Assembly: GCA_903901975.1 (NCBI GenBank)
Contig: CAIUTB010000147.1
Location: 19,471-83,470 of the forward strand
Reading direction: 5' to 3'
Source: an uncultured Bacteroidales bacterium
GTDB lineage: Bacteria; Bacteroidota; Bacteroidia; Bacteroidales; Paludibacteraceae
DNA: 64,000 nt
Shown here: piece after piece, positions 28,334 to 34,553 of the stretch
Layout: each line of letters starts with the position of its first letter
Numbering within the stretch: position 1 is the stretch's first letter
Translations under genes and position numbers: made by a program
The notes under the pieces: model-generated
Database searches by the model: none
What the model was told of the DNA's origin: nothing
The model's input: only the letters and a program-made list of their open reading frames with translations

Positions 28334-29614
28334 TTAATGTGAACTATATTCAATCGCCATATAAGTAACAGCTCCTGCAATATAACCCAATAAGGCCAAC
28401 CAGCTGATTTTCTTCAGATACCAGAAAAAATTAATCTTTTCCATGCCCATGGCAGCCACTCCGGCAGCCGAACCAATAATCAAAATACTGCCTCCTGTTC
28501 CGGCACAATAGGCTAGAAATTCCCAGATATAACTATCTATTGGATATTGAACCATGTTGTACATTCCTTGTGTCGCAGCAACTAACGGAACATTGTCAAT
28601 TATAGCCGAAGATAAGCCAATAGTCATAACAATGACGCTCAGGTTTCCAATAGAATCAGTCAACCATTTTGCCATGAAAATCAAAACTCCGGCTGATTCA
28701 AGTGTTGCAATGGCCAATAAAATCCCGAGAAAAAATAGGATACTTGAAATATCTATTTTATGAAGAGCGCTGACAAGTGTGAGATGTTTTTTCTTTTCCA
28801 AGTCGCGTTTACCGTGCATAAGTTCAGTCACAAGCCACATAAAACCCAGACTGAAAAGCATTCCCATAAAGGGCGGAAGGTGGGTGATAGTTTTAAATAC
28901 CGGAACAAAACCTAGGGAAAGAATTCCCATAATAAGAATTACTTTCTGCTGTTGACGTGTGTGTTGCTTTTCTATGAAATAGGTTGAAACCGCAGCCCGT
29001 TCAATCTTTCCTCTTAGTTGAAAAGAAATTACGACCAACGGAACGAGCAAACAAACCAGACTTGGAATAAAAAGCTTCAACATTATATTGGCGGCAGAAA
29101 TTTGTCCGCCAATCCACAACATAGTGGTGGTCACATCGCCAATCGGTGTCCAGGCACCACCGGCATTGGCAGCAATAATTACAATACCCACAAAAAGCAT
29201 TCGGTCATCGTCTTTGCGGATTAGTTTTCGGAGCAATGATACCATGACGATGGTAGTGGTCAGGTTGTCGAGAATGGCGGAAAGGAAGAAGGTGATAAAA
29301 CTGATTATCCAGATTAACCTTCGCTTGTTGGTGTGTCTGATAAGCTCGGTAATAATTTCGAAACCATCGTGAGCATCAATTAACTCTACAATAGTCATTG
29401 CACCTAACAAGAAAAAAAGAATACCAGAAATATTACCCAAATGAGAAAGAAGTTGTTCGTTGACCAAGGATTTATCTGCCGAGGCAATTATGTAAACTGC
29501 CCACATAAGCACTCCAATTAATAAAGCCGAAGCGGTTTTATTGATTTTGAGTCTATGCTCAAGTATAATGGCAGCATAGCCCAGAACGAAAATAAGAACT
29601 AGAATAATAATCAC
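28334..29614 (-). CDS. nhaD: NhaD-type Na+/H+ antiporter
   Basis: DNLTTTIVMVSLLRKLI, NAGGAWTPIGDVTTTMLWIGGQI, SSAIIDNVPLVAATQGMY. Confidence 0.88.
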   Translation of the reverse strand: MIIILVLIFVLGYAAIILEHRLKINKTASALLIGVLMWAVYIIASADKSLVNEQLLSHLGNISGILFFLLGAMTIVELIDAHDGFEIITELIRHTNKRRLIWIISFITFFLSAILDNLTTTIVMVSLLRKLIRKDDDRMLFVGIVIIAANAGGAWTPIGDVTTTMLWIGGQISAANIMLKLFIPSLVCLLVPLVVISFQLRGKIERAAVSTYFIEKQHTRQQQKVILIMGILSLGFVPVFKTITHLPPFMGMLFSLGFMWLVTELMHGKRDLEKKKHLTLVSALHKIDISSILFFLGILLAIATLESAGVLIFMAKWLTDSIGNLSVIVMTIGLSSAIIDNVPLVAATQGMYNMVQYPIDSYIWEFLAYCAGTGGSILIIGSAAGVAAMGMEKINFFWYLKKISWLALLGYIAGAVTYMAIEYSSH

Positions 29615-29686: not shown

Positions 29687-30682
29687 TTAGTTATATTTTT
29701 CCAAAAACTTACCAAATGCTTTCTTTGCCTGTCCGCTTTCGAGTGATTCGGCTGATTCTGCTTTGCATTGTTCAAGTGGTTTATATGAACTACGTGTTTG
29801 AATAGCAAAAGCTGAGTTGATTATCACCGCATTTCGTTGCGCTTCGGTGGCTTTATTATCCAGTACGTTCATAAATATCCGAGCCGCTTCGTCTACCGTA
29901 TTTCCACCCCAAAGTTCCTCTTGTTTAAGTGTTTTAAAGCCTAATTGTTCAGGTGTATAAATGAATTCACCATTATTATTCATCACTTTACAAGAATCAG
30001 TCAACGATATTTCATCATACCCATCCAACGAATGCACAATAGAATACTGACAACCCAAATTCTGATAAATATAATTGTAAAGACGCATCATTTTGAGGCT
30101 ATAAACACCTAAACATTGATATTGAGGTTTCACTGGACTAATAAGTGGTCCGAGTACATTAAAAAACGTACGAACGCCTAACCCTTTACGCACAGGAGCT
30201 ACGTTTTTCATGGCTGGATTGAAAAGTGGAGCATGCAAATAAGCAAAACCGGAATCTTCTAACGAATGTTTAATTACGTCAATATCAGTTGTAAATTTGG
30301 CACCGTAATACTCCAATACATTCGATGAACCGCTTACCGAAGTAGCTCCGTAATTACCGTGCTTAGCCACTTTATAACCGGCACCCGCCACAGCAAAACA
30401 GCTACAAGTGGAGATATTGAATGTATTTTTCCCATCACCGCCCGTGCCTACAATATCAAGCGCATCAAATTCCGATAAATCCATCGGGATAGCCAAATCT
30501 AACAACGCATTGCGAAAGCCAATGACCTCGTCGAGTTCTATACTGCGCATCAGATATACTGAAATAAATGCAGCAATCTGTGCATCGTTGTATTTTCCGG
30601 CAGCAATATTGGTCATCACTTCAGCGGCTTCCTGACGTGTAAGCGATTGATGATTAAACAGTTGATTAAGTATTTGTTTCAT
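29687..30682 (-). CDS. trpD: Anthranilate phosphoribosyltransferase
   Basis: DIVGTGGDGKNTFNISTCSCFAVAGAGYKVAKHGNYGATS. Confidence 0.95.
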   Translation of the reverse strand: MKQILNQLFNHQSLTRQEAAEVMTNIAAGKYNDAQIAAFISVYLMRSIELDEVIGFRNALLDLAIPMDLSEFDALDIVGTGGDGKNTFNISTCSCFAVAGAGYKVAKHGNYGATSVSGSSNVLEYYGAKFTTDIDVIKHSLEDSGFAYLHAPLFNPAMKNVAPVRKGLGVRTFFNVLGPLISPVKPQYQCLGVYSLKMMRLYNYIYQNLGCQYSIVHSLDGYDEISLTDSCKVMNNNGEFIYTPEQLGFKTLKQEELWGGNTVDEAARIFMNVLDNKATEAQRNAVIINSAFAIQTRSSYKPLEQCKAESAESLESGQAKKAFGKFLEKYN

Positions 30683-30688
30683 AAATCT

Positions 30689-30809
30689 GCCCCCTAACCC
30701 CCTAAAGGGGGAATAATAAATAATATTTTACTTTAATTTTAAAAATAAATAGTTGGATAAAGCGTGAATTCTGTACCACCAAAACTCCCCCTTTAGGGGG
30801 TTGGGGGGC
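30689..30809. repeat. CCCCTAAAGGGG-type inverted-terminus element, copy E6 (trpG/trpD junction)
   Basis: gccccctaaccccctaaagggggaa ... aactccccctttagggggttggggggc. Confidence 0.7.
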
Positions 30810-31461
30810 TTGCTTCCAACCAATTCTTCAGCATTTGCTCCCCATCAGGTGTCAAAACCGATTCCGGATGAAACTGAACACCGCGCACATCATAGGTTTT
30901 ATGTGACAATGCCATAATCATTCCTTCTTCGTCAACAGCAGTAATGGTCAAACATTCGGGCAAGGTCGATTTTTCAGCTGCCCACGAGTGGTAACGTCCT
31001 ACTTCCAGTTGTTTTGCCAACCCGTTGAACAGCACATCCTCTTCCAAAACATTCACCATAGAACTTACGCCGTGATGCACGTCGGTCAGGTTTATTAATG
31101 TTCCGCCAAATGCTTCCGCAATGGCTTGTTCGCCAAGGCAAACGCCCAAAATTGGTTTTGTTGGCGCATAGGTGCGAATCACCTCCAGTAGAATGCCTGA
31201 TTCCGACGGAACACCAGGTCCCGGCGAAAGGATAATTTTATCAAATCGTGCAATGTCTTCCAATGCTATCTGGTCGTTGCGGTGCACTTCCACGTCGGTG
31301 TATCCCAACTTTTTTACGGCGTGTACCAGGTTGTAGGTAAACGAGTCGTAATTATCGAAAACTAAAATAGAGATGCCCCCAACCCCTAAAGGGGAGTTGA
31401 AGTTAGTATCGTTTTGTATTTTTTCTTCTTTATCAATCATATCAATTAATTTTAAAATCAA
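30793..31461 (-). CDS. trpG: Anthranilate synthase component II (glutamine amidotransferase); likely start at MIDKEEKIQ (~31440) inside a repeat element
   Basis: ILVFDNYDSFTYNLVH, LSPGPGVP, ILGVCLGEQAIAEAFGG, GVQFHPESVLTPDGEQMLKNW. Confidence 0.93.
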   Translation of the reverse strand: MILKLIDMIDKEEKIQNDTNFNSPLGVGGISILVFDNYDSFTYNLVHAVKKLGYTDVEVHRNDQIALEDIARFDKIILSPGPGVPSESGILLEVIRTYAPTKPILGVCLGEQAIAEAFGGTLINLTDVHHGVSSMVNVLEEDVLFNGLAKQLEVGRYHSWAAEKSTLPECLTITAVDEEGMIMALSHKTYDVRGVQFHPESVLTPDGEQMLKNWLEASPPTP

Positions 31462-31500
31462 TAGTAATATTTCTTATTCCCCTTTAGGGGTTAGGGGGCC
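31375..31500. repeat. CCCCTAAAGGGG-type inverted-terminus element, copy E7 (trpE/trpG junction)
   Basis: gcccccaacccctaaaggggagttgaagttagtatcg ... ttcttattcccctttaggggttagggggcc; internal sequence closely similar to E8. Confidence 0.8.
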
Positions 31501-31502
31501 GT

Positions 31503-32975
31503 TTAGTGTGTTGTTGCTGTCATTATTGCCTTTTTTAGCGCTGCCAGTTTATTATTTACTTCCTGCAATTCGCTTTCCTCGTCCGATTTGGCAACAATGC
31601 CGGCACCAGCCTGATAGTAAAGTGTATTGTTTTTGCTGACAAAAGAACGAATGGTAATAGCCTGGTTGAAACTTCCGTCGAAGCCAATATAGCCCAAACA
31701 ACCGCCATAAGGACCACGGTCGTGTGGTTCAATCTGATCAATCAGTTGCATGGCTTTAATCTTTGGTGCTCCCGAAAGTGTTCCGGCAGGGAAAGTATCG
31801 GCAAAAAGTTTGATGATTTTGGTGTCGGGTTTTAGTTTGCCGCTTACGCTCGAAACCAAATGCAACACGTGCGAATAATACTGTACTTCGCGGAATACTT
31901 CTACTTCTACGTGGTCGGCGTTGCGACTTAAGTCGTTGCGGGCCAAATCTACCAACATAACATGTTCGGCATTTTCTTTTTTGTCAACTCGCAATTTTTC
32001 AGCCAGTTGAAAATCCTTTTCATCGTCGCCAGTGCGGCGGAATGTTCCGGCAATAGGTTTGATATAGGCTTTTTGTTTCTTGGCATCCACCACAAGGTGA
32101 GCTTCAGGCGACGAACCGAAAATACGGAAATCACCAAAGTTGAAATAGAACAAATAAGGTGACGGATTTACCGAACGCAAGGTGCGATACAACATAAAGT
32201 CATCACCCTTGTATTTTTGATAAAAACGGCGCGAAAGAACTATCTGGAAAACATTCCCTTTGAAACATTCTTTTTTTCCCTGTGTTACCATTTTTTTATA
32301 ATCTTCGTTCGAAATATCCGATTTTTCCTCGCCAATAGCCTGAAATTCGTAAGTGGCGATATTATTATTCGACAATATCTCTTCTATATCAGCAATGGCT
32401 GACGTTTCACCTTCGAGCAGATTTTCGATAATTGTCAGTTCGTTATTGAAATGGTTTACGGCAATAATGTACTTAAAAAGTATGTAATGCAAGCCCGGCA
32501 TACTTCCAGGAACAGTTTCGCGCGCTTTCAGTTTCACATCCTCAAAATACTGAACCGATTCGTACGACGAATAGCCGAACAGGCCATTCACACCAACCGG
32601 ATTGTCGTTCTTTACCAAATCAACCGATTTCAGAAAAGCATCGAAACGCTCAGCTACAGTCAGTTTGCCGGTAACCGGCGTTTCAAGCTTTGAACCGTCA
32701 GGATATTCCTCTTTAATCACAAACTGATTCACCGAAATGCCACCAATCGGACAAAAGCCGATATACGAATAACTGTTCTCAACCCCGTGATAATCGGAAC
32801 TTTCCAACAGCACCGAGTTAGTATATAAATCGCGTATCTTGAGATAAATTCCTACCGGCGTCTGCAAATCGGCCAGCATCTTTTTTGAGTTTACGAATAG
32901 TTTCAAAGAACCCCCAACCCCTAAAGGGGAGTTGGATCTAGTATTGTTTTGTATATTTTCTTGTTTATCAATCAT
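31503..32975 (-). CDS. trpE: Anthranilate synthase component I
   Basis: FQIVLSRRF, SSPEAHLVV, PIAGTFRRTGDDEKD, VDLARNDLSRNA, GTLSGAPKIKAMQLIDQIEP, GPYGGCLGYIGFDG. Confidence 0.95.
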   Translation of the reverse strand: MIDKQENIQNNTRSNSPLGVGGSLKLFVNSKKMLADLQTPVGIYLKIRDLYTNSVLLESSDYHGVENSYSYIGFCPIGGISVNQFVIKEEYPDGSKLETPVTGKLTVAERFDAFLKSVDLVKNDNPVGVNGLFGYSSYESVQYFEDVKLKARETVPGSMPGLHYILFKYIIAVNHFNNELTIIENLLEGETSAIADIEEILSNNNIATYEFQAIGEEKSDISNEDYKKMVTQGKKECFKGNVFQIVLSRRFYQKYKGDDFMLYRTLRSVNPSPYLFYFNFGDFRIFGSSPEAHLVVDAKKQKAYIKPIAGTFRRTGDDEKDFQLAEKLRVDKKENAEHVMLVDLARNDLSRNADHVEVEVFREVQYYSHVLHLVSSVSGKLKPDTKIIKLFADTFPAGTLSGAPKIKAMQLIDQIEPHDRGPYGGCLGYIGFDGSFNQAITIRSFVSKNNTLYYQAGAGIVAKSDEESELQEVNNKLAALKKAIMTATTH

Positions 32976-33034
32976 ATCAATTAATTTTAAAAATCAATAG
33001 TAATATTTCTTATTCCCCTTTAGGGGTTAGGGGC
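32909..33034. repeat. CCCCTAAAGGGG-type inverted-terminus element, copy E8 (trpB/trpE junction)
   Basis: cccccaacccctaaaggggagttggatctagtattg ... ttcttattcccctttaggggttagggg. Confidence 0.8.
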
Positions 33035-33069: not shown

Positions 33070-34302
33070 TCATTTAAAATGTTTCACATAAGTATCCATA
33101 TCTTTATCACCACGCCCTGAAACGGTGATAACCACAATATCGTCGGGTTTAAAAGTAGCTTTTTCTTTTTTGAGCAATGCAAGTGCGTGTGCCGATTCAA
33201 TGGCCGGAATAATTCCTTCCAAACGGGTCAACTCAAAGGCGGCTTCCAATGCTTCATCATCATTAATGGCATGCACTTTGGTACGACCAACCTGCGCGAA
33301 ATATGCATGTGCAGGTCCGATTCCAGGATAATCCAATCCTGCTGAAATTGAATAAGGTTCCGTAATCTGACCATCTTCGTCCTGCATCAGCAATGTGCGA
33401 AAACCGTGAATAATTCCAACAGTTCCAATGCTTATCGTTGCAGCAGTTTCACCGGTTTCAACGCCCATGCCACCCGCTTCGGCCGAAATTAGTTGAACGC
33501 GTTCATCATTTATATAATGATAATAGGTTCCCATGGCGTTACTTCCACCACCCACACAGGCCATCAGGTAATCGGGATAATCGCGACCAATCTGCTCCTG
33601 TAACTGCCATTTTATTTCCTCACTGATAACCGACTGGAAGAATCCAACCATGTCGGGATACGGATGTGGCCCAACTGTTGATCCAATAATATAAAATGAA
33701 TCGGGATTTGAGCACCAATAACGGATAGCTTCGTTGGTGGCATCTTTCAGTGTACAGTTCCCACTGGTCACAGGTTCAACCGTTGCACCCAACATGCGCA
33801 TTTTCTGCACGTTCAAAAACTGACGTTCCACATCCGTTTTGCCCATAAATACAATACACTCCAACCCCATTAATGCACAGGCTGTAGCAGTTGCCACACC
33901 GTGTTGTCCGGCACCAGTTTCGGCAATAATGCGGGTTTTGCCCATGCGTTTTGCCAACAGAATTTGTCCTAAGGCATTGTTGATTTTATGTGCACCGGTA
34001 TGGTTCAAATCTTCCCTTTTGAGGTAAACATTTGTGCCATATTCTGCTGATAAACGCTTTGCTAAATACAGTGGCGAAGGCCGCCCTACGTAGTTTTTAA
34101 GCAAGTCGTAATATTCGGCTTTGAAGGAAGCATCTTTTTTAATGGCGTAAAAAGCTTCTTTGAGTCGCTCAACAGTTCCATGCAAAATCTCAGGAATGTA
34201 GGCACCTCCAAATTCGCCATAATAGCCGTTGTTATCAATACCCCCAACCCCTAAAGGGGAGTTGAAGTTAGTATTGTTGTTTGTATTTTTTTCTTTGTTC
34301 AT
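33070..34302 (-). CDS. trpB: Tryptophan synthase beta chain
   Basis: GYYGEFGGAYIPE, KREDLNHTGAHKINNALGQILLAKRMGKTRIIAETGAGQHGVATAT, GGGSNAMG. Confidence 0.96.
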   Translation of the reverse strand: MNKEKNTNNNTNFNSPLGVGGIDNNGYYGEFGGAYIPEILHGTVERLKEAFYAIKKDASFKAEYYDLLKNYVGRPSPLYLAKRLSAEYGTNVYLKREDLNHTGAHKINNALGQILLAKRMGKTRIIAETGAGQHGVATATACALMGLECIVFMGKTDVERQFLNVQKMRMLGATVEPVTSGNCTLKDATNEAIRYWCSNPDSFYIIGSTVGPHPYPDMVGFFQSVISEEIKWQLQEQIGRDYPDYLMACVGGGSNAMGTYYHYINDERVQLISAEAGGMGVETGETAATISIGTVGIIHGFRTLLMQDEDGQITEPYSISAGLDYPGIGPAHAYFAQVGRTKVHAINDDEALEAAFELTRLEGIIPAIESAHALALLKKEKATFKPDDIVVITVSGRGDKDMDTYVKHFK

Positions 34303-34352
34303 ATAATCTTAAATAAACAGTTGTAATTTAACTCCCCTTTAGGGGTTAGGGG
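34241..34352. repeat. CCCCTAAAGGGG-type inverted-terminus element, copy E9 (trpB 5' end)
   Basis: cccccaacccctaaaggggagttgaagttagtattg ... actccccctttaggggttaggggt-like end. Confidence 0.75.
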
Positions 34353-34358
34353 TCAAAC

Positions 34359-34394
34359 AAAAAAGGCTTATCGTGAGTCCGACAAGCCTTTTTG
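34359..34394 (-). terminator. trp attenuator terminator upstream of trpB
   Basis: minus strand aaaaaggcttgtcg-gactca-cgataagcctttttt. Confidence 0.85.
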
Positions 34395-34441
34395 TAATAT
34401 CTTATTATTTCGACAATTTACATAGGTGTTACATCTCACGA

Positions 34442-34498
34442 TTAGCTAATCTGCAAGTGCCACCACCAAAATTTGTTTATTGTCAAAATTGTATTCAT
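34442..34498 (-). CDS. trpL: trp leader peptide MNTILTINKFWWWHLQIS
   Basis: 18-codon ORF with three consecutive Trp codons, followed by an antiterminator segment (ATCGTGAG) complementary to the terminator hairpin (CTCACGAT). Confidence 0.85.
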   Translation of the reverse strand: MNTILTINKFWWWHLQIS

Positions 34499-34522
34499 TT
34501 CTTTTTGATTTAATATCGGGTA

Positions 34523-34553
34523 CAAAGATGATAAATTATTTTTATTTGTGCAA
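34523..34553 (-). promoter_or_regulatory. Putative trp operon promoter (TTG-N20-CATCTTTG)
   Basis: Minus-strand near-match to the Bacteroidetes -33/-7 consensus just upstream of trpL. Confidence 0.5.

Follow-up and report, generated by a model that had tools for sequence, protein, structure and literature searches.

A probable ribosome-mediated attenuator of the Bacteroid-trp family upstream of trpBEGD in an uncultured Bacteroidales bacterium

The window analyzed here, a stretch of 64,000 nucleotides from an uncultured Bacteroidales bacterium (contig CAIUTB010000147.1), carries on its minus strand a short Trp-rich reading frame and a hairpin ahead of four trp genes. This raises the question of whether the leader controls these genes and, if so, which segments of its RNA have to pair. 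An initial annotation, made from the sequence alone, had proposed a compact ribosome-mediated attenuator in a Bacteroidetes trp operon. The proposal was borne out by the conserved WWW and its spacing, by an antiterminator and a terminator that both covary, and by predicted pairing that depends on the position of the ribosome. Comparison and modelling thus point to a ribosome-mediated transcription attenuator of the Bacteroid-trp family, which very probably controls trpBEGD.

Elements of the leader

All elements of the leader were located on the minus strand. A promoter-like site of the Bacteroidetes type (34523-34553) consists of TTG at 34553-34551, a spacer of 20 nucleotides and CATCTTTG at 34530-34523, base for base as annotated upstream of the leader, and a block much like it occurred upstream of the leaders in most of the same-genus loci displayed. 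A sigma-70 scan gave nothing above chance, as expected for the phylum, whose promoter type is outside the coverage of the scan. The leader reading frame (34498-34442) encodes the 18 residues MNTILTINKFWWWHLQIS followed by a stop, again in agreement with the annotation, and holds three consecutive UGG codons at 34468-34460. Its WWW peptide is conserved in relatives.

The two strands of the putative antiterminator were assigned from sequence, covariation and folding. The 5' strand, GCUaAUCGUGAG, spans 34435-34446 with the core AUCGUGAG at 34442-34435, the first base of which is the last A of the leader's UAA stop (34442). The 3' strand, CUCACGAUaAGC, spans 34366-34377 with the core CUCACGAU at 34377-34370. 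The perfect complementarity claimed for the two cores was verified, and CUCACGAU was found to comprise the last 4 loop bases of the terminator and the first 4 bases of its 3' arm. The complementarity is slightly longer than claimed, with GCUaAUCGUGAG and CUCACGAUaAGC forming 11 pairs around one A-A mismatch.

The intrinsic terminator (34359-34393, from folding and covariation) reads AAAAAGGCUUGUCG-GACUCA-CGAUAAGCCUUUUU and then the end of the U run, the hairpin occupying 34393-34360 and the U6 34364-34359. Folded alone it was strong, with -18.4 kcal/mol compared to -4.4 +/- 2.2 kcal/mol in shuffles (z -6.4). The terminator pattern of the sigma-70 scan missed this hairpin, but direct folding shows it clearly. 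Besides the terminator, the fold of the full-length leader contains one further hairpin, the long protector hairpin (34407-34489), in which AUUUUGACAAU near the 5' end pairs with AUUGUCGAAAU near the 3' end. The protector hairpin appeared in the minimum free energy fold, in the structure of the Rfam model and in covariation within the genus. In the minimum free energy fold it encloses the Trp codons and AUCGUGAG, most of which is paired. The 160-nt leader as a whole folded at -43.6 kcal/mol, compared to -23.4 +/- 3.5 kcal/mol in shuffles (z -5.7). Of the mutually exclusive hairpins described in the initial annotation, the antiterminator and the terminator stood, as both use bases 34373-34370 and both covary, but a third structure, the protector hairpin predicted to hide AUCGUGAG in an untranslated leader, had been left out.

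Family membership and occurrence in relatives

The leader matched the Rfam family RF01692 (Bacteroid-trp) at 34518-34381 with 49.2 bits, only just over the gathering cut-off of 49, and along the whole model (positions 1-131 of 131). A reading frame with consecutive Trp codons within the hairpin and a site upstream of trp genes in Bacteroidota were found together with this score. The locus is therefore a member of an already known family and ordinary as a locus, and its kind is not new. Bacteroid-trp was listed as a cis-regulatory RNA in a comparative-genomics survey (Weinberg et al. 2010, PMC2864571), and the leader of the window shares with it the phylum, the position upstream of trp genes, the short Trp-rich reading frame and the central hairpin. 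An attenuator-like element of the same family was noted upstream of trp in Flavobacterium psychrophilum (PMC6414381), in a passage on the leader that gives no structure or test. A worked-out antiterminator or switch for Bacteroidetes trp leaders was not found in the open-access literature searched. The RF01692 model includes the protector hairpin and ends at AAAAAGGCUUGUC; because it stops there, in the 5' arm of the terminator, it is without the terminator's 3' arm and the antiterminator partner, both of which are added here and both of which covary. Two more RF01692 matches in the genome (E 2.5 and 4.3) were regarded as noise, and a match of rnk_leader (RF01771) over the terminator with 25.2 bits against a cut-off of 50 was attributed to chance.

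An extended model was built from 24 leaders aligned through the terminator, which was the only structure included. It found a single site in the genome of the window. Among relatives, the whole unit was detected in 45 of 48 genomes of the genus, a figure that leans on the partial training of the model on that genus, and in 121 of 295 genomes of the order and 79 of 398 in the phylum sample. RF01692 itself matched in 45 of 200 genomes of the family, and the extended model recovered six of the nine same-genus genomes missed by it. Named genomes carrying the unit include Bacteroides fragilis and B. finegoldii, with weaker matches in Pedobacter and Sphingobacterium. A Trp-rich leader was present at nearly all strong matches, and a trp gene followed within 700 nt in 134 of 146 inspected loci (trpB in 68, trpE in 62 and trpD in 4). 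The WWW leader peptide is conserved upstream of trp genes in dozens of genera, and leader residues outside the WWW and the RNA-constrained end vary among relatives. Antisense matches and weak matches lacking a Trp leader were discarded, as they were taken to reflect the near-palindromic terminator. Tandem Trp leaders, each with its own leader peptide and terminator, were observed upstream of trp genes at four loci, L206 (G219:C131), L207 (G410:C20), L215 (G396:C46) and L217 (G398:C36), and are apparent double attenuators.

This conservation bears on the least credible alternative, in which an unregulated early terminator or an sRNA-like transcript happens to contain a short reading frame. That reading would fit the strength of the terminator alone but is very hard to reconcile with the match to RF01692 and with a WWW peptide that stays in frame and at a constant spacing ahead of trp genes across dozens of genera.

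Covariation and folding of the antiterminator

Attenuation could be real without the proposed pairing. AUCGUGAG and CUCACGAU would then not be a working antiterminator, the stalled ribosome would act otherwise, through coupling lost or gained or through the protector hairpin alone, and UCGUGAG would be kept for another reason, e.g., as a C-terminal Ser codon and stop context. Close relatives leave room for this reading, as much of the antiterminator segment is nearly invariant among them and therefore gives no information on pairing there. Across the phylum, however, the segment and the terminator loop showed compensatory changes. These were counted in an alignment of 101 matches, comprising 100 distinct leaders across Bacteroidota, that was built without the antiterminator pairing. 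In the 100 leaders, 85.4% of cells were paired over the eight pairs of AUCGUGAG/CUCACGAU, compared to 27-49% with the partner slid by 1-3 columns, a control that keeps relatedness. Double-sided changes amounted to 43 cells, compared to 16.1 +/- 3.1 in shuffles, of which 0 out of 500 reached 43, and the covariation score was 0.234 compared to 0.177 +/- 0.007, with the shuffle control ignoring relatedness. Compensatory variants included UCGUGAG/CUCACGA, UCGUGAA/UUCACGA, UUGUGAG/CUCACAA, UCGUAAG/CUUACGA and CCGUGAG/CUCACGG. One pair was swapped from G-C to A-U in 15 sequences and another in 7, and swaps from C-G to U-A and from U-A to C-G also occurred. Pairing is the only evident reason why the loop bases should change in step with a segment that lies about 60 nt upstream. 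The terminator was paired in 98.6% of cells across the phylum, with double-sided changes at all 11 modelled pairs, and the protector hairpin in 89.9% within the genus, compared to 27-50% for slid partners; six of its pairs had double-sided changes.

The distance between the Trp codons and the segment speaks against the same alternative. Among 100 leaders, the UCGUGAG position lies 18 nt past the end of the last Trp codon in 42, 21 nt past it in 25, and 17, 19 or 20 nt past it in a further 21. In 54 of the 100 the segment opens with a Ser-UCG codon, so that the UGA or UAA stop begins at an offset of 3 nt and is followed by G. In the window and a group of close relatives the stop lies just before the segment, with the same spacing of 18 nt. 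This spacing is kept even though the stop is placed differently, so the constant quantity is the distance to the sensing codons, which fits what ribosome control demands. The stop only has to lie within reach, so that a ribosome terminating there covers the segment.

Nascent RNA was folded with the footprint of the ribosome held unpaired. At the point where CUCACG has just emerged, this constrained folding gave the antiterminator a probability of 1.00 whichever of the three Trp codons occupied the A site, compared to 0.00 when the RNA was free or the ribosome stood at the stop. This result held for downstream footprints of 9-15 nt. Since the segment adjoins the stop, the masking of AUCGUGAG in the stop state is in part built into the model. 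The annotated expectation that stalling at Trp codons frees the segment and that a ribosome at the stop covers it thus held in constrained folding, in which the antiterminator was accessible with the ribosome on the sensing codons and masked at the stop. Among relatives, 82 of 100 leaders showed the on/off pattern (>0.5 with the A site on the last Trp codon, <0.2 at the stop), with a free-RNA median of 0.002; the 18 of 100 that failed at identical settings favor an attenuator without this pairing. Shuffling the 6-nt loop of the window alone left P>0.5 in half of the variants. Single-sequence folding therefore lends weak support, and the argument is carried by covariation.

Once the 3' arm was exposed through GCC, the terminator won at equilibrium in every state, with -28.6 kcal/mol compared to -23.2 kcal/mol with the antiterminator forced. 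This too favors the alternative, and a switch by this pairing must therefore be kinetic. That stalling leads to the antiterminator, as first proposed, remained valid for the nascent transcript, in which the antiterminator is favored, but only before the 3' arm of the terminator is complete. To displace the antiterminator, the terminator would have to invade a helix that has already formed, and coexistence of the two helices would produce a pseudoknot with almost no connecting loop, which was judged unfavorable. With the phylum-wide covariation and the kept spacing on the other side, attenuation without the AUCGUGAG/CUCACGAU antiterminator was considered unlikely.

Proposed mechanism and operon context

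In the attenuator with a AUCGUGAG/CUCACGAU antiterminator, RNA polymerase would start a few bases past CATCTTTG and a ribosome would translate the 18-residue leader. With ample charged tRNA-Trp, the ribosome at the stop would cover AUCGUGAG, the terminator would form and transcription would end before trpB. With charged tRNA-Trp in short supply, the ribosome would stall on one of the three UGG codons, breaking the protector hairpin and freeing AUCGUGAG. As the terminator loop emerges, AUCGUGAG would capture CUCACGAU and thereby tie up the loop and the upper 3' arm, which would keep the terminator from closing before RNA polymerase passes the U run. In an untranslated leader, the protector hairpin would hide AUCGUGAG and termination would follow. 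Sequence and comparison establish that the elements exist, that they are conserved and that antiterminator and terminator covary; from this we infer the response to tryptophan, the stalling of the ribosome, the coupling of transcription and translation and the kinetic outcome, with coupling of ribosome and polymerase assumed for this organism.

The trp attenuator of E. coli forms 1:2, 2:3 and 3:4 hairpins, and its antiterminator takes the 5' arm of the terminator. Both systems have a protector hairpin, an antiterminator that becomes available when the ribosome stalls at Trp codons, and a terminator that forms with the ribosome at the stop. In contrast, the antiterminator here takes the terminator loop and 3' arm, and the leader stop mostly falls within or next to the antiterminator strand. 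The Rfam search gave no match above cut-off for the enterobacterial Trp leader, and the antiterminator of the window does not take the 5' arm. Throughout Bacteroidota, the likely topology is an antiterminator strand that contains or abuts the leader stop, whereby the terminating ribosome masks it directly, and that captures the terminator loop and 3' arm in a kinetic race, with the choice of UGA or UAA covarying with the terminator loop. The added value lies in the phylum-wide evidence for the antiterminator, i.e., for which two segments must pair, and its covariation gives exact, testable base changes. The corrected model extent, through the terminator, should find members missed by the RF01692 model. 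As a compact case of an antiterminator competing for the 3' side of a terminator, the leader is also useful for kinetic folding and for ribosome-polymerase coupling in the phylum.

In addition to the cis switch, and not in its place, the terminated leader RNA or peptide might also act in trans, as described for peTrpL of Sinorhizobium (PMC7298713). In its favor, the locus would yield a short, structured RNA and a small conserved peptide, and beyond this the idea draws on precedent from elsewhere; it was considered improbable, as the cis switch explains the conservation and the residues outside the WWW and the RNA-constrained end vary.

The first gene past the attenuator is trpB (tryptophan synthase beta, 33070-34302, minus strand, Pfam PALP), which starts 56 nt past the U run and whose product is 85% identical to TrpB of a Paludibacter MAG. 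This identity places the bacterium close to Paludibacter, its nearest named relative, within Bacteroidales. It is followed on the same strand, by Pfam assignment, by trpE (anthranilate synthase component I, 31503-32975), trpG (anthranilate synthase glutamine amidotransferase, 30793-31461) and trpD (anthranilate phosphoribosyltransferase, 29687-30682). The operon comprises trpBEGD only. Because trpA and trpC are located on another contig (G000:C55:10668-13007), the sole leader found in the genome does not control the whole pathway. A CitMHS-type transporter gene lies 3' of trpD in the same direction (28334-29614 of the window) and could be co-transcribed with the trp genes.

Three of these genes have their start codons within pairs of inverted palindromes, CCCCTAACCCCTAAAGGGG ... 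CCCCTTTAGGGGTTGGGG, that are spaced by about 90-100 nt, at 34241-34352 (trpB), 32911-33033 (trpE) and 31376-31497 (trpG) of the window. The copies before trpE and trpG are 93% identical, and the second palindrome reads NSPLGVGG in frame. The genome holds 54 exact palindromes, some of which open the N-termini of other reading frames, e.g., a glutamate racemase-like one. Within the genus, some TrpB N-termini begin MDYSIDNNGYYGEFGG without the element and others carry about 20 extra residues with SPLG.GG. These sequences suggest the in-frame insertion of a mobile palindromic element that supplied a new start codon.
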